IMG/VR virus record: IMGVR_UViG_3300031718_000022
Span: 1-40,980 of that record
DNA length: 40,980 nt
Direction: 5' to 3' (one strand)
DNA from: a virus
Below, piece after piece: positions 1,606 to 40,709 of this stretch. Under the pieces are notes generated by a model. That model saw only the letters and a list, made by a program, of their open reading frames with translations, made no database searches and was not told the origin of the DNA. How positions within the stretch are numbered: the first letter of the stretch is position 1; every line of letters begins with the position of its first letter. The translations under genes were made by a program, and so were the position numbers.

Positions 1606-4600
1606 TCACGCCCCCGCCACATAGCGAATCGCGTTCGATGCTCGCCCCTCATGCGACTGCAAATGATTTGCAAGAGATTCGCCGACAGCCATGGAGTTAC
1701 CGGGCTTCTGGAGGAAGCTGTGGAACGACTCCGAATCCATCGTCTGAATCGGACCGGTGAACACGTTGGTAACGCCGCCGCCCGCTCCCGGAGCATTCGA
1801 AACTGGCGTCAAGCCTGTACCCGTCGCGCTACCGCTATAGGGCGCCGTGACCACGCCCGGAGCGTCATACCAGCCCTGCTGCCCGTTTAGAGTCCGCTTG
1901 GTAATGTAGGGCTCCGCAACGGTCGGTACGGCGGAAAGGTTCGAGGTGCGGATATTTCCCCTCGCGTCGAAATCCTCGTAGGTGCCGTTCATTCCCTGCG
2001 TGACATTAAGCGCTGTCGGCGCGAGGTAGGCGTCCTTGTTGATGTAGTCGGTAATCTGCTGCGATCGCTGCTGAGGCCCGGTAGAAAGAACTGCACTCAA
2101 TAGGCCCGTAACGGCGGCAATAGGGGCTGCAATGAGCCCAGCTCCAGGGATGAGGGACGCCATACCCGCGAGCGCGGCGACGCCGCCCAGAGCCCCGGAG
2201 GCCCCACCCTTTTCGAATGATTTGATAGCGGAAATGGTGCCCGCCGCTACCGCGGCCGCGACACTGACGCCTTGGCCTATTGTCGTGGGCGTCGACGAGG
2301 CAATCGGCGTGCCGCTGGCATCGTGAGGCAGGCCGTCGGTTCCCCATCCGACTGTCCCGGCAGGTGGTTGCGTCCCCAGGAGGCGGGCGAGGGCCATGCT
2401 GGGACCTCCCGAGACTCCCGATGCAAATTGAGCCAGTACGCTGCTACCCGCGTTGAGCGCGCTGGTTGACGAAAGATTCGGACCGAAAGCGTTAAACGTG
2501 TTGGGCAGGTTATAGAGGCTCGTACTGCCGGCGCCGATCCCCGTACCCATCAGGCCGCCGCTCGATCCCATAAACGGGTTGAAGCCGCTTCCCCCTCCGG
2601 ATCCACCAGGTTGGACCTGAGCATTCGGGTCGCTGTTGCCGGTGAAGATGCCCTTCAAGTCGCCACGTAATCCCAAGACTTGCTTCACTGTTTCGAGGGT
2701 GTTGTTCGCCGTCTGCTGCGGGGCAGCGTTGGCGCTATCGAACACAGTGCCGTGAAGCAGACTTCCGAGCGCTCCCGTTTGCGCCGATGCCGGAATCACG
2801 CTTCCCAGCGCGTGGGTTGCGCCTTCGAGGATTGGTGTCGCGGCGTTGGTGAAGAGCTGCTTACCCTGACCGACGGCGAAGTCCTTGAACCATGAGCCGG
2901 TGGAGCGGCTCCGGAGCGCGTCGAACAGGCCGCCCGCCATCTGTGAGGCTTCCTGCTTTTGCTTCAGCGCAATATCGAGCAGCTCGTTTTCGCGCTCCAT
3001 CTCGATATCGAACTTCTTCTCCTTCAACTGGTCGATGGCATCGAGGCGCGCCTTTTCTGAATCGACACCCTTGGCGTTGGCTTCGCGCATCTGCGCCGCA
3101 AACTCTTCATTGGCATAGAACAGACGGGCGCTCGCGTTACTCTCGGCCGACTGCTGCCCGGATGCGCCGGAGAGCCTGTTCTGAAGGGATAGCTGGCTCA
3201 TTCCGCGGCGTTCGTTATCGCGAGCATCGCGGAGTTGCTGCTGGGGAGACTGATAGCCCGCGGGTGCCGCGATTGTTACGCCCTCGGTCAGATCGCCGAT
3301 GCCGGTTTGGTGCTTGCCTTCGACTTCGGCCTTGAAAATTTTATCCATCGACTCGGTGAGGTGCTTGACCAGCTCCTCTGCCGGGTTCTTGGTGTCATAT
3401 TCCTCGTCGCCCTTCTTCTGTTCGGCGCGGAATGTCTGGAGGGCAGCGCGGCCGCGGGTCTGGCGCGCTCTTTCGATGCGGGAATCGAAGCCGGGGTTCT
3501 GGCGCTCTTCGTCACTGCTCTCGTTGTTGATCACGCCGAGCGATGCCGTAAACCTGCCGAGAGGCCCTTCCCCTTTGCCGGATGCCCGCTCCATTTCATC
3601 CGCGGCGCGCTTCTCGATTTCGGTGATCCGGTTTTCCTGGGCCTCGCGCTTGCGGAGAGCTTCGGCTAATTTCCGTTGGGCTTCCGCGGCTTTGGTGCGG
3701 TCCTCTTTGTCGCCGGCGGCGGTCTTTTCGCCAGCCTCGGCCAGATCCTTCACCTGCTGCTTCCGCGCCGTCTCCAATGCGGCATCGAGCCCGTGAAACG
3801 ATTTGGCCGCGTCCGACTGTTTCTGTGTGATCCCTTCGCCCTCGCCAATTCCCTCAAGTCCGGTTTTAAATTTGTCGTCGTCCTGTTTGCCGGTAGCCTG
3901 CGCAATTCGGGCCGCGAGACCCACATCGCCCGGGCGAAACAGCGACTGTGGAACCATTCCCACTCCCGGCCTGAAATATGTACTGGTATTTGCGCCCGCG
4001 ATTCTGTTCACCTGCGCCTGCAGCGCCAGCAGTTTGTCGATCTGGTCCTGATCTTCGTGACCTGCAGCGCGTGCCGCGTCCGCGGCGTCCAGGCGATCGA
4101 CGAAGCCAGGTCCGAACTGGCGCTTCAACTTTTCCCGATTCAGTTCGCGGACTTTGCCCGCCAGCTTGTCGTATTCTTCGCCCTCCGATTTAAGAAGTGA
4201 AAGGGATGATTCCTGCGCCTTCAGCACGGGGTCATGAGCGTCCGCCCACTTCCCTACCTTGTCGATAATGGTGTCGAGTACTCCAATCAGCGCGATCGCG
4301 CCGAACACCGGAAAGGCGAACTGCATCGCCGTGTTGATGCCCTGGATACTGCTGAGAAACTGCGCCGCCGAGCGGATCGGCATCGCGCCTTCGAGCCCGC
4401 GCAGCGCCGCTGTCATGTTCCGAACGTTGCCCGTCGCGCCAGCGGTTGCCCCGCTCAAGCGCTCCGTCGATGATGTCGCGCTGTCCGTCGCCGTGGTCTG
4501 TCCCAGCAACGCGATCCGGTATTGAATCGTGAGCTGCTCGATTTTGGCTTGTTCGATTGCCAGCTTCTGGGCGCCGAGGGTGTATTTCTGCTGAGCCGTA

Positions 4601-4725
4601 TCCGCGCCATAGAGCGCGTTATTCATTGCCGAGGTAGCGCCGGTCTGCTTCTCAGTCGCCGAGGTCAGCGCGGAGAGGGAGCCCTGGCCGGAAACTGCTG
4701 CATTTACGTCGAGCGTGTAACTCAT
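1606..4725 (-). CDS. Tail tape measure protein
   Basis: At 1039 residues this is the longest protein in the window, placed directly downstream of the frameshifted tail chaperone pair, which is diagnostic. The first 100 residues are rich in A, Q, T and S. Hydrophobic segments follow (around residues 130-160), then a long charged coiled-coil-like region (residues 160-600) and a Gly/Ser/Pro-rich stretch. Near residues 790-870 are further alanine/glycine-rich hydrophobic stretches. The family sets tail length inside the assembling tube and enters the host envelope at injection. By the usual relation of about 0.15 nm per residue, a tail of roughly 150 nm is expected. ATG 4725 overlaps the upstream TGA (ATGA), indicating translational coupling. 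Confidence 0.9.
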   Translation of the reverse strand: MSYTLDVNAAVSGQGSLSALTSATEKQTGATSAMNNALYGADTAQQKYTLGAQKLAIEQAKIEQLTIQYRIALLGQTTATDSATSSTERLSGATAGATGNVRNMTAALRGLEGAMPIRSAAQFLSSIQGINTAMQFAFPVFGAIALIGVLDTIIDKVGKWADAHDPVLKAQESSLSLLKSEGEEYDKLAGKVRELNREKLKRQFGPGFVDRLDAADAARAAGHEDQDQIDKLLALQAQVNRIAGANTSTYFRPGVGMVPQSLFRPGDVGLAARIAQATGKQDDDKFKTGLEGIGEGEGITQKQSDAAKSFHGLDAALETARKQQVKDLAEAGEKTAAGDKEDRTKAAEAQRKLAEALRKREAQENRITEIEKRAADEMERASGKGEGPLGRFTASLGVINNESSDEERQNPGFDSRIERARQTRGRAALQTFRAEQKKGDEEYDTKNPAEELVKHLTESMDKIFKAEVEGKHQTGIGDLTEGVTIAAPAGYQSPQQQLRDARDNERRGMSQLSLQNRLSGASGQQSAESNASARLFYANEEFAAQMREANAKGVDSEKARLDAIDQLKEKKFDIEMERENELLDIALKQKQEASQMAGGLFDALRSRSTGSWFKDFAVGQGKQLFTNAATPILEGATHALGSVIPASAQTGALGSLLHGTVFDSANAAPQQTANNTLETVKQVLGLRGDLKGIFTGNSDPNAQVQPGGSGGGSGFNPFMGSSGGLMGTGIGAGSTSLYNLPNTFNAFGPNLSSTSALNAGSSVLAQFASGVSGGPSMALARLLGTQPPAGTVGWGTDGLPHDASGTPIASSTPTTIGQGVSVAAAVAAGTISAIKSFEKGGASGALGGVAALAGMASLIPGAGLIAAPIAAVTGLLSAVLSTGPQQRSQQITDYINKDAYLAPTALNVTQGMNGTYEDFDARGNIRTSNLSAVPTVAEPYITKRTLNGQQGWYDAPGVVTAPYSGSATGTGLTPVSNAPGAGGGVTNVFTGPIQTMDSESFHSFLQKPGNSMAVGESLANHLQSHEGRASNAIRYVAGA

Positions 4726-5177
4726 TCGTTCGCCGCCTCATCCATCGCGTTATCGACGGAGATGCTTTCGCTCTGGCACACCCGCACCGCATCGAGCAGA
4801 TAGCCTGGCATCTCATCCGCGCCCACTGTTGAACCCGTCGATTTGAAAGCTCCCTGCATCTGATTCACGATTTCCACCAACTCGAACGATTTCTGGGTGA
4901 TCAAAGAGACCGGGCATTCCGACTCCCTCACTCCGGGGATGCTCCAGTAAAAGGCCTCCTTGAGCCACTGCTTCTGGCCGTCCGGCCGCGTCCGCCGAAA
5001 CGCCGTATATTTCGGCCACCACCACTTCGCCCTCCGCGGATCCACATCACGCGCGAAATACCTAAAGCAGTTCCGGTCTAGGTAGTAACCACCGGAAGGG
5101 CCTCGACACTTGCCGCAGTTGAAGTCTTCTTTTCCCCACCCGCCGCCTCGCCAGAAGTGATAGGCGAGGATGAGTTT
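4722..5177 (-). CDS. Tail assembly chaperone, -1 frameshift extension (gpT-like)
   Basis: This reading frame has no convincing start of its own. Its protein-like part begins exactly where the upstream chaperone gene carries the heptamer GGGAAAC (5180-5174). A -1 slip there would join 174 residues of the upstream protein to about 150 residues encoded here, giving a product near 324 residues. The extension contains a Cys pair (FNCGKCRG), the segment GGYYLDRNCFRYF and a tryptophan-rich stretch RAKWWWPKY, so it looks like real protein. In lambda-like siphophages gpGT is made this way and loads the tape measure for tube polymerisation. Its stop overlaps the tape measure start, as expected. Confidence 0.7.
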   Translation of the reverse strand, partial: KLILAYHFWRGGGWGKEDFNCGKCRGPSGGYYLDRNCFRYFARDVDPRRAKWWWPKYTAFRRTRPDGQKQWLKEAFYWSIPGVRESECPVSLITQKSFELVEIVNQMQGAFKSTGSTVGADEMPGYLLDAVRVCQSESISVDNAMDEAANE

Positions 5178-5695
5178 CCCCTTTCCGTGCCGCCCAGGCG
5201 TGCGTCCTTGGTCAGCGCTTCGTAAATCTCCGCAGCCAGCGCCGGAGGGCCGTAATCCAGAAGCTGCTCCGCCGTCATACCGTCCACGTCGCCGCCTTCG
5301 ATCGACACAAAGCCCGCGCGGATCCATGCTGCGCTGATTCGGTTTTCGACCTGGACATATTCCTCGTTAAGCACCGCCCGCGCCTTCTTTACCTCCGCCG
5401 GCACGCATGCCGCCAGCTCAGCCGCGAGAGGTTCTACGTCGGCCTTCATGACCGCCTCGGACTCTTCGGCCGAAACTGCCAGCGCCTTCTTTGTCGCGAT
5501 GGCGAGCTGCTCGCTCAGCTCCTTCTCCTTGTCGGTGCGCGGGGGATGATCGGCTTCGAGTTCCCGCAATCGTTGGCGGAGTTTCAACGTGTCGAAGTCG
5601 AGGTCCGTGCGCCGGGACAGGCCCATTCTGCGAATGGTGAATTTGACGTCCGGGAGGGCCGTCGAATCGCGCGTGATGGTGGGCGAGAAGGGCAT
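5078..5695 (-). CDS. Tail assembly chaperone (gpG-like)
   Basis: A 205-residue charged protein with a clear helical core (residues 30-100, for example RQRLRELEADHPPRTDKEKE) and a low-complexity Ser/Thr/Ala C-terminus. It occupies the gpG slot between the tail tube region and the tape measure and overlaps a second frame by 250 bases. This arrangement is typical of chaperone pairs made by programmed frameshifting. The residues after the slippery heptamer (NSSSPITSGEAAGGEKK) look like a disordered tail, in contrast to the alternative frame. Function is by position and architecture; the sequence itself is not strongly diagnostic. Confidence 0.75.
   Translation of the reverse strand: MPFSPTITRDSTALPDVKFTIRRMGLSRRTDLDFDTLKLRQRLRELEADHPPRTDKEKELSEQLAIATKKALAVSAEESEAVMKADVEPLAAELAACVPAEVKKARAVLNEEYVQVENRISAAWIRAGFVSIEGGDVDGMTAEQLLDYGPPALAAEIYEALTKDARLGGTERGNSSSPITSGEAAGGEKKTSTAASVEALPVVTT
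5174..5180 (-). promoter_or_regulatory. Probable -1 ribosomal slippery site GGGAAAC
   Basis: Read on the minus strand the sequence is G GGA AAC in the frame of the gpG-like gene, which fits the X XXY YYZ rule. After a -1 slip both tRNAs re-pair on GGG and AAA, and translation continues CTC ATC CTC into the extension frame. Lambda uses the near-identical GGGAAAG. No downstream stem-loop or pseudoknot was worked out. Confidence 0.65.
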
Positions 5696-5696
5696 G

Positions 5697-6011
5697 CTAT
5701 TTGGTTCTCACGAAGTGCATATTGCCCAGAAAGCCGACCTGGTCTCCCATCGTGGGATCCGACACGGCGGGTTCGTAGATCGGAATATTCACGGAGTCGC
5801 CAATCATAAGCACCATAGGATTGAAGGGCGCGGGCCGCCCCGTTTTCGCGCGGACCCACGGGAAGAGCAGGCCCCCCTTGGCTTCCGTCAGTGCCGCCTC
5901 GATGCGTTCGCGTGACACGAAGGCGCTCGCATCGATCAGCTCAAACGTAATGGGCACCGAGTGCCGCAGGACGGTTATCGATTCTCCGACTTTCATGTTC
6001 TCGACAGGCAT
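5697..6011 (-). CDS. Hypothetical tail-region protein
   Basis: A 104-residue protein beginning MPVENMKVGESITVLRHS, with alternating hydrophobic residues that suggest a beta-rich fold. It has no membrane segment or known motif. It lies one base upstream of the gpG-like gene and downstream of a 33-residue basic peptide gene, so it belongs to the same leftward operon. A minor tail or assembly role is possible from position only. Confidence 0.65.
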   Translation of the reverse strand: MPVENMKVGESITVLRHSVPITFELIDASAFVSRERIEAALTEAKGGLLFPWVRAKTGRPAPFNPMVLMIGDSVNIPIYEPAVSDPTMGDQVGFLGNMHFVRTK

Positions 6012-6017
6012 GCTGAT

Positions 6018-6119
6018 TCAGCGCCGCGAATCGCGCTTCGCCTTCTTCCTGTTGTGGATCCGCTTCGGTTGCTTCGCGATGGGCGCGAGGCGAAAGCCCC
6101 AATCCATTGCTGCCGGCAT
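6018..6119 (-). CDS. 33-residue highly basic peptide
   Basis: The short frame starts ATGCCGGCAGCAATGG at 6119 and ends TGA at 6018. The product is strongly basic (KQPKRIHNRKKAKRDSRR at its end), with about 13 Lys/Arg in 33 residues. The start overlaps the stop of the Acb2-like gene by one base (TGATG), and a very good ribosome binding site, GGAGGGAA, lies eight bases upstream, so translation is likely. The basic tail could bind nucleic acid or an acidic partner. No family is recognised. Confidence 0.55.
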   Translation of the reverse strand: MPAAMDWGFRLAPIAKQPKRIHNRKKAKRDSRR

Positions 6120-6373
6120 CAGTACTTCCCTCCATGCGTAATTGCCGAGTTGCAATCCATCCGCGCATCCCTGAGCTTTCGAATCGCGACGGTGCGGTCC
6201 GGCGATGGCGGAACGTTATCGATGATGACTTTCACCGCGCTGGCCAGAGCTTCGCGGACTCTGACGCCATTGGCGACCTGTTGCTCGTCCCATTTGTGGT
6301 ACTCGAACATGTCATCTACGGTTGCCGCCACCTCAGGCGTACAGCCGCCCGCTCGATTGATGTCTACTGGCAT
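6119..6373 (-). CDS. Acb2-like cyclic-nucleotide sponge (candidate anti-CBASS/anti-Thoeris)
   Basis: An 84-residue helical protein with a strong ribosome binding site (AGGAGGAAGC before ATG 6373). From residue about 20 it matches the pattern I associate with the Acb2/Tad1 hairpin family: an aromatic-Tyr-His element (MFEYHKWDEQQV), an arginine-containing first helix (NGVRVREAL), a PP-x-PDR turn (NVPPSPDRTVAIRKL) and a final helix ARMDCNSAI. Proteins of this family form small oligomers that sequester cyclic di- and trinucleotide signals, blocking CBASS and in some cases Thoeris defence. The resemblance is from remembered consensus, not a search, and ligand binding is untested. Its place in the tail operon means late expression unless another promoter exists. 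Confidence 0.65.
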   Translation of the reverse strand: MPVDINRAGGCTPEVAATVDDMFEYHKWDEQQVANGVRVREALASAVKVIIDNVPPSPDRTVAIRKLRDARMDCNSAITHGGKY

Positions 6374-6382
6374 GCTTCCTCC

Positions 6383-6658
6383 TTAATCGAGAAATCCCCA
6401 GATAGGCTCGATCTTCACCGTTAACTGGTTAGTCGCCTCGTTGGGCGCCTTGCCGAAATCCGGGGTCGATTGGCTGCCGCTGGCCTCAACTCTCACCGCG
6501 TATGCCGAAGGGAAAGCTGCGAGCGCGGCCGCGACGGCAGTCGCGACGCTCTTCTTGATGGTTTCCTCAGGCTCCGAACATTTGTATGCTGCGAAGTCGA
6601 TCTCCAGCGCGGCTGCTACTGCGTGCGCCCTGCCTAACCTGCTTACGCTCCAACTCAT
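6383..6658 (-). CDS. Hypothetical conserved phage protein
   Basis: A 91-residue protein beginning MSWSVSRLGRAHAVAAALE, with an alanine-rich helix (TAVAAALAAFPSAYAVRVEA) and the segment VEASGSQST. Small phage proteins with a similar start, a helix and a short VxASG strand are common next to tail tube genes, but their role is unknown. The start is clear: AGGAGGAAGTGC precedes ATG 6658. It sits ten bases before the Acb2-like gene in the same operon. Confidence 0.65.
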   Translation of the reverse strand: MSWSVSRLGRAHAVAAALEIDFAAYKCSEPEETIKKSVATAVAAALAAFPSAYAVRVEASGSQSTPDFGKAPNEATNQLTVKIEPIWGFLD

Positions 6659-6668
6659 GCACTTCCTC

Positions 6669-7700
6669 CTAACTGAACGTCAAATTAAGTTCGTCCACCG
6701 CCGTTGCTGTTGAAGCGCTGGCCTGTGAATCGCTGAACGCCGTAACAACACGCGCTGCTTCATCCGAGTACTCGGGTACCGCAAGCTGCACGCCCTTGAT
6801 CACGACTGTGGTGATATTGCCCGTCAGCGTGCCGTTTACGAGGGTGATAGTCATCGGCGTTTTTGCTTTCGCCTTGACCTTCAAATTGTTCAAAGCTGCT
6901 GTGTCACAATCCTGGAACGTGAAGGCCAGGGAGGCCATGCGCCGGCCGCCGGACGGGAGCGCGCCGTACGAGGTGCCGTAAGCATCGAGCGTGTAATCGT
7001 TGCCCGTCTTCCCCTTGATCTCGCATTTCAGAAGTGGGAAGGTAGTCGAGTCCACGCCATTTCCGTCGAACGTCGCGGTACCGATGAAGCCTTGCCGCAA
7101 GGTGCCGAGCGACGTGGGTGAGACCAATTCCACAGGGAAGGTGGTCAAACCGCCAGTGCCGGTCGTATCTTCATTCGCGAAGTTCTCCGAGTCGAGAACC
7201 CAGAAGCATTTCCCATTCGCCGAGATGCTGAATACATCGCCGTTGAACAGGATCGACCAGTCGGTAGTGATGCAACCGATGGCGAACTGCTGGGTGAGCG
7301 AGGTGGCTAAATGTTGGAAGCGCGCCAGAATAAACGGCACAATCCCGGTATCCAGGAGCGTATAGGCGCTGCCTGTTGGCGCCTGCCCGAAGATGGACTG
7401 GATGAGGAGATCCATGTCCGGAGGCGTGCCACCCGTCCCTGAGGGCACGATGGGCACGTTAGGAAGCGAGAAGGTGTTGTTGCTCTTTCGCCCAGATACA
7501 CCTGGCTGCATGGACCTGGTTCCGGTCTTCATCGGGTTGGTGATTAAGGTCGGATCGGCTTTGATCTTGCAGCCGGATCCCGCGCGCAAGAGCTTCGCGC
7601 CGGTGTTGGTCCATACCCCGGCCGCGTTCGGCACGAGGGCGAAAGAGGCCTGCGGCGCGATGACTAGCCGCTCAACAAAGGGAGATGTAAACTGCGACAT
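6669..7700 (-). CDS. Major tail tube protein
   Basis: A 343-residue protein rich in beta-forming residues, Gly, Thr and Ser, without signal peptide or membrane segment. It starts MSQFTSPFVERLVIAPQ and has many short strands (for example TFDGNGVDSTTFPLLKCEIK and MTITLVNGTLTGNITTV). It lies between tail-completion genes and the chaperone/tape measure block, where siphoviruses place the tail tube gene. Tube proteins polymerise into stacked hexameric rings around the tape measure. The start overlaps the preceding stop as TAATG. Identity rests on size, composition and order. Confidence 0.75.
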   Translation of the reverse strand: MSQFTSPFVERLVIAPQASFALVPNAAGVWTNTGAKLLRAGSGCKIKADPTLITNPMKTGTRSMQPGVSGRKSNNTFSLPNVPIVPSGTGGTPPDMDLLIQSIFGQAPTGSAYTLLDTGIVPFILARFQHLATSLTQQFAIGCITTDWSILFNGDVFSISANGKCFWVLDSENFANEDTTGTGGLTTFPVELVSPTSLGTLRQGFIGTATFDGNGVDSTTFPLLKCEIKGKTGNDYTLDAYGTSYGALPSGGRRMASLAFTFQDCDTAALNNLKVKAKAKTPMTITLVNGTLTGNITTVVIKGVQLAVPEYSDEAARVVTAFSDSQASASTATAVDELNLTFS

Positions 7701-8077
7701 TATTTGTCCTCACTGGGAACGGGCGATTCAGGATTCGGAGCAGGAGCCGGCACGGGAGCTTCCGCTTTGGGGGCTGGAGCTTTCGCTACTTGCTCGCTGA
7801 ACAGCGCGTCGCGATATTGGCGCGCGGCTTCAATTGCCTTTTCAGCCTTCGCGTGGAAGTCAGCCGATGCGCGGGCCTGCAGGTTGGCGTTGGAGAGCTT
7901 CAATTCATCCGGCGTGAACCCGAGCTTGTCGAACTGATCCTTCGGCAGAAGATGCGCGCCGGATCCGATCGCGCCCCGCGCCAGATCTTCGGGGATCTCG
8001 ACAGGCTGCCCCCAGGTTTCGATTTTGTGCGGGGTATCGACGATTTCGAAGTTGCCGCCAACATTCACATAGAGCAT
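7700..8077 (-). CDS. Hypothetical head-tail region protein
   Basis: A 125-residue protein. The N-terminal 60 residues look folded (MLYVNVGGNFEIVDTPHK, then a GSGAHLLPKDQFDKLG element). A charged helix follows, and the last 25 residues are Pro/Ala/Glu-rich and probably disordered (PVPAPAPNPESPVPSEDK). AAAGGA lies five bases before ATG 8077. It is coupled to the tail tube gene by a one-base overlap. The N-terminal pattern recalls small phage connector-associated proteins, but no function can be assigned. Confidence 0.65.
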   Translation of the reverse strand: MLYVNVGGNFEIVDTPHKIETWGQPVEIPEDLARGAIGSGAHLLPKDQFDKLGFTPDELKLSNANLQARASADFHAKAEKAIEAARQYRDALFSEQVAKAPAPKAEAPVPAPAPNPESPVPSEDK

Positions 8078-8092
8078 AAGAATCCTTTCAAA

Positions 8093-8287
8093 TCAGAAGC
8101 ATCTCTTTTCGTAGACGAATACCCGGACGAACAAATAGACCAGCGCCGCCACTTGAGCAGCGAACGCGGTGAGGGTCATATGCAGGGGCGCTTTCGTCTT
8201 GCGCAGGGAGCAGGCGAAGCCCCAGATCATGGCCACACAGCCCCAGGCCATCAAGCCAAGCCAGATGAAAGACCATACGTTTGTCAA
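8093..8287 (-). CDS. Small two-span membrane protein
   Basis: A 64-residue protein with two hydrophobic segments (about residues 5-25, WSFIWLGLMAWGCVAMIWGF, and 38-57, LTAFAAQVAALVYLFVRVFV) separated by a basic loop SLRKTKAPLH. ATG 8287 overlaps the TGA of the tail terminator candidate (ATGA). A membrane protein between tail genes is unusual. It could be a holin-like or superinfection-exclusion factor, but no evidence separates these. Confidence 0.6.
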   Translation of the reverse strand: MTNVWSFIWLGLMAWGCVAMIWGFACSLRKTKAPLHMTLTAFAAQVAALVYLFVRVFVYEKRCF

Positions 8288-8811
8288 ATCGTTAGCTCCA
8301 TGCGGCAGCTAATTCGCAGGCTCTGCCGCCAGTTCTCGCCGCCGAACTGAATCTTTCCCCGCTGCGAGACGATGCCGCCCTTGGCGAGCTGGAGATTGCC
8401 ATACGTGCTCCAGATGTTCTGCTGGTTGGGATCGTGCAGGCACGAAATCACGGCATCCTCGGTCATGTCGACCAGCGAGGCGAAATCGGAAAGCACCGAT
8501 TCATCGGGCCAGCTATGGTGCACATCGATGAGGCCCAGCACCGAACCCGAAAAGGTCGAGTTGTAGATGAGGTCCTGCCCTATCGCGTTGGCCGTGTCGA
8601 TTGTTACCAGCGGATAAGTGAGGACGCTCGACCCTTCAACCGAATCCGGATCGATCTGGCCGAACAAGAAATTCGTGCTCTCAGCCGACCAGTCAATCGA
8701 GTAGGCCGTCTGTCCGTATGGGCCAGCCAGCAGCAGCATGCGGTCGTTGATCCCGCTGCCAGGTGCCGACAATTGCGCGAGAAGAGCATTTCGGACGGTC
8801 TTTGAGATCAC
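8284..8811 (-). CDS. Probable tail terminator / tail completion protein
   Basis: A 175-residue protein starting at GTG 8811, which overlaps the previous gene's stop (GTGA). The N-terminal helix (KTVRNALLAQLSAPGS) is followed by a mixed alpha/beta pattern ending in the strand WRQSLRISCRMELTI. Size, fold pattern and position between a virion morphogenesis protein and the tail tube fit tail terminators, which cap the tube and join it to the head. No sequence motif proves this. Confidence 0.5.
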   Translation of the reverse strand: MISKTVRNALLAQLSAPGSGINDRMLLLAGPYGQTAYSIDWSAESTNFLFGQIDPDSVEGSSVLTYPLVTIDTANAIGQDLIYNSTFSGSVLGLIDVHHSWPDESVLSDFASLVDMTEDAVISCLHDPNQQNIWSTYGNLQLAKGGIVSQRGKIQFGGENWRQSLRISCRMELTI

Positions 8812-9071
8812 CCCGCAGCTCCTTTCGCGAGCGCAGCCAGAGGCTCCGCGATCGCGGGATAGGGATCGGACACGCCCAGGTATTCATCGATAAATCGCAC
8901 CAACAGACTCATGGTGTTGCGGCAGCCTTCGCGCTTCGCCGTCCGATTGAACTTCTTCCAGAGACCGTCGGGAGTGATCCCACGCCGCGATGCGATCGCA
9001 CACGGCTCGAACCCGCGATACAGATCGTAGAGAACCTGCTTTTCGCTCTCGCTCAAATTCATCGGGGTCAT
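8808..9071 (-). CDS. LuxR-like helix-turn-helix protein inside the morphogenesis operon
   Basis: An 87-residue protein. Residues 6-66 follow the LuxR/sigma-region-4 pattern: LSESEKQVLYDLYRGFEP, then the helix-turn-helix CAIASRRGITPDGLWKKFN, then a final helix SLLVRFIDEYLG. Such domains bind DNA. It overlaps both neighbours by four bases (ATGA and GTGA) and has GAGGG upstream of ATG 9071, so it is co-translated with head-tail genes. It may be a late regulator or a structural protein that reuses a helix-turn-helix fold, as some head-completion proteins do. Confidence 0.6.
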   Translation of the reverse strand: MTPMNLSESEKQVLYDLYRGFEPCAIASRRGITPDGLWKKFNRTAKREGCRNTMSLLVRFIDEYLGVSDPYPAIAEPLAALAKGAAG

Positions 9072-39764: not shown

Positions 39765-40709
39765 TTACAGCCCCAGCGATGCGCCGGCATTGTTGCGCCA
39801 GATCTCGGTTCTGCGGAAATAGCGTTGCACGATAGCGGGACTCTGGCCCGTGTAAGCTCCGATACGCATCGCTCCGATGTTGGCTTCCCCCAGTGCGGTA
39901 ACGGCCCCGCTCCTCAAGCTGTGCATGCCCGATTGGGTCGGATCAATACCAATTCCCTTCAGGCAATTCTTCAGAATTCGGCAAAGGCATTCCCCATCGA
40001 GCGGCTCTCCCTTGCGGTGAGCGGTGAGCCGGCAGAAGACCGGACCGGGATCATCCCCGCGCACGCGCAGCCAGCCCTTCAGGACGCGCACCGGGTCGGT
40101 ATTGGTATGTCGACCCCTGACGATTCCTACAAGCCGTCCCTTGCCCTCCTGGTCCTGTTTCTCGCGGTCTATGCTGATTATCAAACCCTGTCGGACAAAC
40201 TCAATATCCTTGAGGGTCAGAGCTGCAAGGTTCGAGCGCCGGAGGGCGGAGGCGAATCCCACTACCAGCAGGGCACGGTTCCGCATGCTGGCCGGGCTGC
40301 CGATCTTGGCCAGGCGGCTGGACATTTGCCGCAATTCCCGTACCGTGATCGGCCGCATCTGCCGAGGCTTTTCTCCGCGCAACCGTTGGGCGCCCCGCAG
40401 CAGCTCCGCGATATTGGCGCTATTCGGGGAGGGGAGGCCGAGCGCGCGGTGTTCGTGCACGATGGCGCATTTTCGCCTTCTGGCGGTTGTGATTTTCTTG
40501 CCCTGGCTCAACAGGTCGGTGAGGTAGAGAGACAGAGTTTCGGAGGTGGTAGGCAGGCTTGCGAGATTGAAACTCGCGCACCAGGCGGAGTACATGCGGA
40601 CGTCATAACCGTAACCCGCCAGGGTGTTTCGGGCGACGAGGCCTTGGCGAAGGCGGGCTTGTTCAAGTCTGAGGGTTGCAATGGTGTCGTTAGGATTGTG
40701 GGTAGCCAT
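39765..40709 (-). CDS. int: Tyrosine recombinase / integrase
   Basis: A 314-residue tyrosine recombinase. The N-terminal SAM-like core-binding domain spans residues about 10-110. The catalytic domain has Arg157 (SALRRSNL), the strand Lys in the DREKQDQEGKGR region, His263-x-x-Arg266 (HSLRSG) and the nucleophile Tyr297 (QRYFRRTEIW). The His/Trp position after motif II reads Gln/Ser (YTGQSPA), a known variation. It is typical of phage integrases that also include stand-alone forms. GGAG lies five bases upstream of ATG 40709. Together with the excisionase-like genes it makes this a temperate phage end. Confidence 0.88.
   Translation of the reverse strand: MATHNPNDTIATLRLEQARLRQGLVARNTLAGYGYDVRMYSAWCASFNLASLPTTSETLSLYLTDLLSQGKKITTARRRKCAIVHEHRALGLPSPNSANIAELLRGAQRLRGEKPRQMRPITVRELRQMSSRLAKIGSPASMRNRALLVVGFASALRRSNLAALTLKDIEFVRQGLIISIDREKQDQEGKGRLVGIVRGRHTNTDPVRVLKGWLRVRGDDPGPVFCRLTAHRKGEPLDGECLCRILKNCLKGIGIDPTQSGMHSLRSGAVTALGEANIGAMRIGAYTGQSPAIVQRYFRRTEIWRNNAGASLGL

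Follow-up and report, generated by a model that had tools for sequence, protein, structure and literature searches.

The window analysed here, which is the whole 40,980-nucleotide stretch of viral DNA, probably carries within its tail operon a short, stand-alone hairpin protein of the Acb2/Tad1 family that would serve as an accessory cyclic-oligonucleotide sponge against CBASS, a reading to which we assign a rough probability of 0.78. With Acb2, phages sequester the alarm molecules of bacterial CBASS systems; the protein forms a homo-hexamer with three sites for dinucleotides and two for trinucleotides. The acb2-like gene lies on the minus strand at 6119–6373, and its 84-residue translation reads MPVDINRAGGCTPEVAATVDDMFEYHKWDEQQVANGVRVREALASAVKVIIDNVPPSPDRTVAIRKLRDARMDCNSAITHGGKY; its identification draws on the open reading frame itself, a sub-threshold match to the Pfam family PF24729 (Acb2/Tad1 hairpin), its relatives, profile-profile alignment, an AlphaFold2 model and a Foldseek search of BFVD. 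A preliminary description had given this frame without a strand, and had credited it with a strong ribosome binding site and a set of family motifs, all of which are present: a Shine-Dalgarno sequence (AGGAGG; 6378–6383, minus strand) lies four nucleotides 5′ of the ATG, and the product contains FEYHKW, VREAL, PPSPDR and ARMDCNSAI. A scan for promoters and terminators around the gene gave hits at chance level only, and the region yielded no promoter. The acb2-like stop codon overlaps (as TGATG) the ATG of a small basic open reading frame of 33 amino acids at 6018–6119 on the minus strand, which was read from the sequence and has a homologous stretch in the related viral contig L031; its RIHNRKKAKRD tail is conserved, and also lies 3′ of the truncated acb2 gene in that contig.

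Relatives of the window protein at 45–86% identity are present in more than 50 viral contigs; a sequence scan of IMG/VR identified 32 loci at 37–86% identity, and a profile scan 80. The dN/dS ratio of the gene against its close relatives is 0.13–0.19, which indicates that it has been kept up by selection, and judged by this ratio and by the relatives in viral contigs the 6119–6373 frame is a real gene. The sub-threshold Pfam score might be read as the mark of a decayed, non-functional relic of a hairpin protein, or of chance similarity, but this seems scarcely credible for a gene with so low a dN/dS ratio, an intact frame and ribosome binding site, a confidently predicted fold, and conservation in dozens of contigs. 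Two of the loci, L014 and L018, are the two ends of a single 45.6-kb contig (IMGVR_UViG_3300036790_000324), which has two similar but non-identical acb2-like genes.

The assignment to the Acb2/Tad1 family had been made from sequence motifs, and profile searches bear it out. PF24729 is the best Pfam match of the window protein, although at 18.8 bits (E 0.0019) it falls under the family cut-off of 27 bits, and taken alone it would be a lead and no classification; the protein also matches an unnamed PHROGs family (E 4.6e-8). Single members of the window clade score 14–23 bits against PF24729, placing the entire branch just below the threshold, and T4 Vs.4, PaP2 p26, Jasmine gp9 and Tunturi_1 gp101 score 45–71 bits. 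Among 28 aligned relatives, 27 match PF24729, the best with an E value of 1.8e-13. We built profiles of the window clade (A1), of the T4/PaP2 Acb2 group (A2) and of validated hairpin proteins (A4), all 11 of the last matching PF24729; hhalign aligns A1 with A4 over 69 columns at a probability of 99.5% (E 1.5e-22), and A4 in turn matches the T4/PaP2 group (91.8%, E 7.5e-7) and finds the PDB entry 9ptq, ‘Acb2 homolog 43’ (E 5.9e-8). Compared directly, profile to profile, A1 and the T4/PaP2 group did not match (2.9%), and the link between the window clade and T4/PaP2 Acb2 is therefore transitive, through A4. The PF24729 matches in 27 of the relatives together with the A1–A4 alignment settle the question, and membership of the window protein in the hairpin family, as a divergent member, is established computationally. 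The family is already known, and it is the window's branch of Acb2 relatives that is unannotated; PADLOC lists no model for the protein.

Structure prediction agrees with this placement. The AlphaFold2 model (mean pLDDT 95) has helices at residues 13–23, 30–53 and 58–80, and the modelled fold is that of an Acb2 protomer, with a short N-terminal helix followed by a long antiparallel helical hairpin; this is the three-helix layout described for Acb2 (PMC10419184). Nearly all of the best fifteen Foldseek matches in BFVD are named Acb2/Tad1 hairpin at a probability of 1.00, the best being the hairpin protein of Lactococcus phage 1706 (probability 1.00, rmsd 0.8 over 64 residues). In the PDB the Acb2 entries 8h2x and 8h2j share the top probability listed (0.63), a weak match with E of about 5 and a TM-score of 0.59. 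The model of the 84-residue protein contains no beta-strands, and Tad1 proper is ruled out by the missing N-terminal beta-sheet.

The acb2-like gene sits in the late operon, in which the major head protein, portal and terminase are recognised upstream; the window's tail proteins are unrecognised by both Pfam and PHROGs, and we assigned them by size, order and shared synteny. The slot that holds the gene is bordered on the left by a probable major tail protein of 343 amino acids (6669–7700, minus strand), which has same-order relatives in contigs L001, L002, L003, L031 and L126 and in Bryobacteraceae prophages, and on the right by a probable tail-assembly chaperone (5078–5695, minus strand), which directly follows the tail protein in L126 and the prophage loci. 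Two further minus-strand genes, both for proteins of unknown function, are likewise inserted between these tail genes: one of 91 amino acids (6383–6658) with a 51% relative elsewhere in the cluster in L002, and one of 104 amino acids (5697–6011) without a relative in the loci fetched. A probable tape measure, placed by size, order and synteny, occupies 1606–4725. At 4722–5695 on the minus strand an overlapping frame comes after the chaperone gene; relatives conserve its product (..QKSFELVEIVNQMQ..), and the pair is likely a G/GT programmed frameshift.

The same tail genes with acb2 in the same slot are found in four other viral contigs (L001, L002, L003 and L031). This constancy of position is what would be expected if this were a small protein of the tail, or of tail assembly, in this phage family, and a helical hairpin only by coincidence, with its gene lying between the major tail protein and the chaperone in the window, L001, L002 and L003. 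However, the slot is empty in L126, where the tail protein is 57% and the chaperone 56% identical and about 21 bases separate the end of the tail protein gene from the chaperone ATG, and also in six Bryobacteraceae prophage loci (L113–L118), in which the two tail genes are adjacent; in L135 the slot is occupied by unrelated genes. In L031 (7960–8120) acb2 is truncated, with about 150 bases gone that cover its ribosome binding site and roughly codons 1–46, and the tail operon is otherwise intact; by comparison of the sequences this is a natural loss of acb2. Moreover, relatives at 55–70% identity occur in dozens of phages without tail genes in common with the window, where clade members adjoin other kinds of genes. 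Beyond L001, L002, L003 and L031, no acb2-bearing contig has tail genes in common with the window, and distant similarity in terminase or head protein is confined to a few contigs at most; in the neighbourhoods examined, with genes predicted by a codon-trained caller appropriate to GC-rich DNA, we found no partner gene that recurs beside clade members. The empty junctions and the scattered contexts lead us to reject a tail component, which we consider very improbable, and these same observations with the L031 loss argue that the acb2-like gene is a losable accessory insertion. The preliminary description thus located the gene correctly among tail genes, but it is an insertion there and no tail gene itself.

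Contig L001 (IMGVR_UViG_3300031823_000008) has an additional gene in this region. Directly 3′ of acb2, within 8001–9000, lies an endonuclease VII/HNH gene of 246 amino acids (PHROG_1035, E 1.8e-22), the end of which runs on into another copy of the acb2 3′ end, one that is identical to the window's over 40 bases; the resident L001 acb2 instead closes with a block that encodes the same DCNSAITHGGKY in different codons. The arrangement suggests a homing endonuclease that has inserted into the conserved tail of acb2, together with a naturally recoded rescue end, and it is a single case among the loci scanned.

Relatives of the window clade are present in Bryobacteraceae and Solibacteraceae MAGs, and relatives of the window tail protein in Bryobacteraceae prophages, which together make an acidobacterial host likely, if on indirect grounds, within the family Bryobacteraceae. 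It had been proposed that an acidobacterial phage would extend the known range of the family; the host is indeed a likely one, but that host group holds more than the window's case, for Tunturi_1, a cultured phage of Acidobacteria, has a relative that scores higher. An integrase is encoded at 39765–40709 on the minus strand (PHROG_216, E 3e-12), and the phage is therefore probably temperate. We note also a protein of about 390 amino acids that weakly resembles the window tail protein (L120–L122 and further G001-family genomes). Of the 237 genomes of the Bryobacteraceae family, 156 gave a match, and most of these have the protein, usually in one copy per genome; where examined it adjoins small chaperone-like genes, and a gene transfer agent, a tailocin or some other conserved tail-like element may be encoded there.

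About 25 of these 237 likely-host-family genomes have a CD-NTase that matches the SMODS model over most of its length. The CD-NTase genes examined in Bryobacteraceae adjoin 2TM or 4TM effectors and so form CBASS operons; likely hosts thus possess a target system. In the ligand pocket, Y25 of the window protein aligns with T4 Y8 and PaP2 Y11, and R40 with T4 K23 and PaP2 K26, the last of which we take to have a role in ligand binding; Y25 and R40 are each at least 90% conserved in the clade. The basic residue is an invariant lysine in the T4/PaP2 group and an invariant arginine in the validated hairpin proteins, and the tyrosine-to-basic spacing is 15 in all three groups (Y25/R40 in the window protein, Y8/K23 in T4 and Y11/K26 in PaP2, and Y43/R58 in the validated hairpin proteins). 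In T4 Acb2, cyclic-dinucleotide binding is lost on Y8A substitution and F82 makes a stacking contact with the ligand (PMC12657218), and T68M lowers affinity (PMC12657230). T68 aligns with R65 of the window protein, which is invariant in the clade, and F82 with T79, two T4 ligand-site residues that differ here; the expected conservation of pocket residues is seen at Y25 and R40. PaP2 Acb2 also has no phenylalanine at the F82 position, which is thus not family-defining.

These substitutions bear on whether the sponge is directed at some other ligand, such as a cyclic oligonucleotide of type III CRISPR systems, an ADP-ribose derivative or a regulatory nucleotide, and is not anti-CBASS. Such a reading would account for the replacement of T68 by an invariant Arg65 and of F82 by Thr79, and for a C-terminal block that is unusually constant in the clade across unrelated phages; Tad1, with the same hairpin, binds gcADPR (PMC12043709). 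We consider it unlikely, with Y25 and the basic residue at +15 retained; near full-length CD-NTases, present in only about 25 of 237 likely-host-family genomes, neither exclude nor prove a CBASS target. Somewhat less unlikely, though still doubtful, is that the invariant Arg65 in place of Thr68 and the near-constant DCNSAITHxGKY tail rebuild the pocket for a mainly acidobacterial signal; if so, the constant tail would mark one fixed host ligand.

Under the favored explanation, a sponge against CBASS, the protein would be produced in quantity late in infection alongside the tail proteins, would presumably assemble as an Acb2-type oligomer, and would bind the signal from host CD-NTases, which would thereby be kept from membrane or nuclease effectors. 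The gene would be accessory cargo between the major-tail-protein and tail-chaperone genes, and its product no part of the virion; such placement in a late operon is unusual for a counter-defence meant to act early.

To our knowledge, counter-defence in the phylum Acidobacteria is almost unstudied, and the window clade adds an unannotated branch of predicted cyclic-nucleotide sponges across many otherwise unrelated soil phages, probably of Acidobacteria. Such sponge genes can hide in structural operons and below Pfam thresholds. Among related phages the slot may be empty, filled or, in one case, occupied by a truncated copy, and these states offer natural comparisons for what a sponge costs its phage and what it gains. 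Panoptes, by which phages are punished for carrying Acb2 (PMC12657218), lends this question a sharper edge.

Comparison with known systems reveals both shared and distinct features. The C-terminal hairpin of Tad1 belongs to the same Pfam family as the window protein, whereas the N-terminal four-stranded sheet of Tad1 (PMC12043709) is missing from it. T4 Acb2 (Vs.4) and PaP2 Acb2 (p26) share with it the pocket tyrosine, the basic residue at +15 and the long final helix, and the terminal KY of T4 Acb2 is also present; however, the T4 and PaP2 proteins have some 20 more residues between their long helices, T68 and F82 of T4 are not kept, and the sequence link is the transitive one. Gp101 of the Tunturiibacter phage Tunturi_1, annotated as hypothetical, is 36% identical to the window protein, has an acidobacterial host and matches PF24729 at 44.6 bits, but its gene lies among small genes near RNase H and not in a tail operon, whereas that of the window is within one. 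The short Acb2/Tad1 hairpin proteins of phages of Gram-positive and actinobacterial hosts (Lactococcus 1706 orf70, Arthrobacter Jasmine gp9 and 9ptq) have the same size and three-helix layout. While the window clade is set apart from the 1706 orf70 and Jasmine gp9 group by its own MDCNSAITHxGKY end, its PPxPDR turn and its sub-cut-off Pfam score, the two share the F-Y-H motif, the arginine at +15, a short turn and the AI.KL.EA helix, and they match profile to profile at 99.5%.
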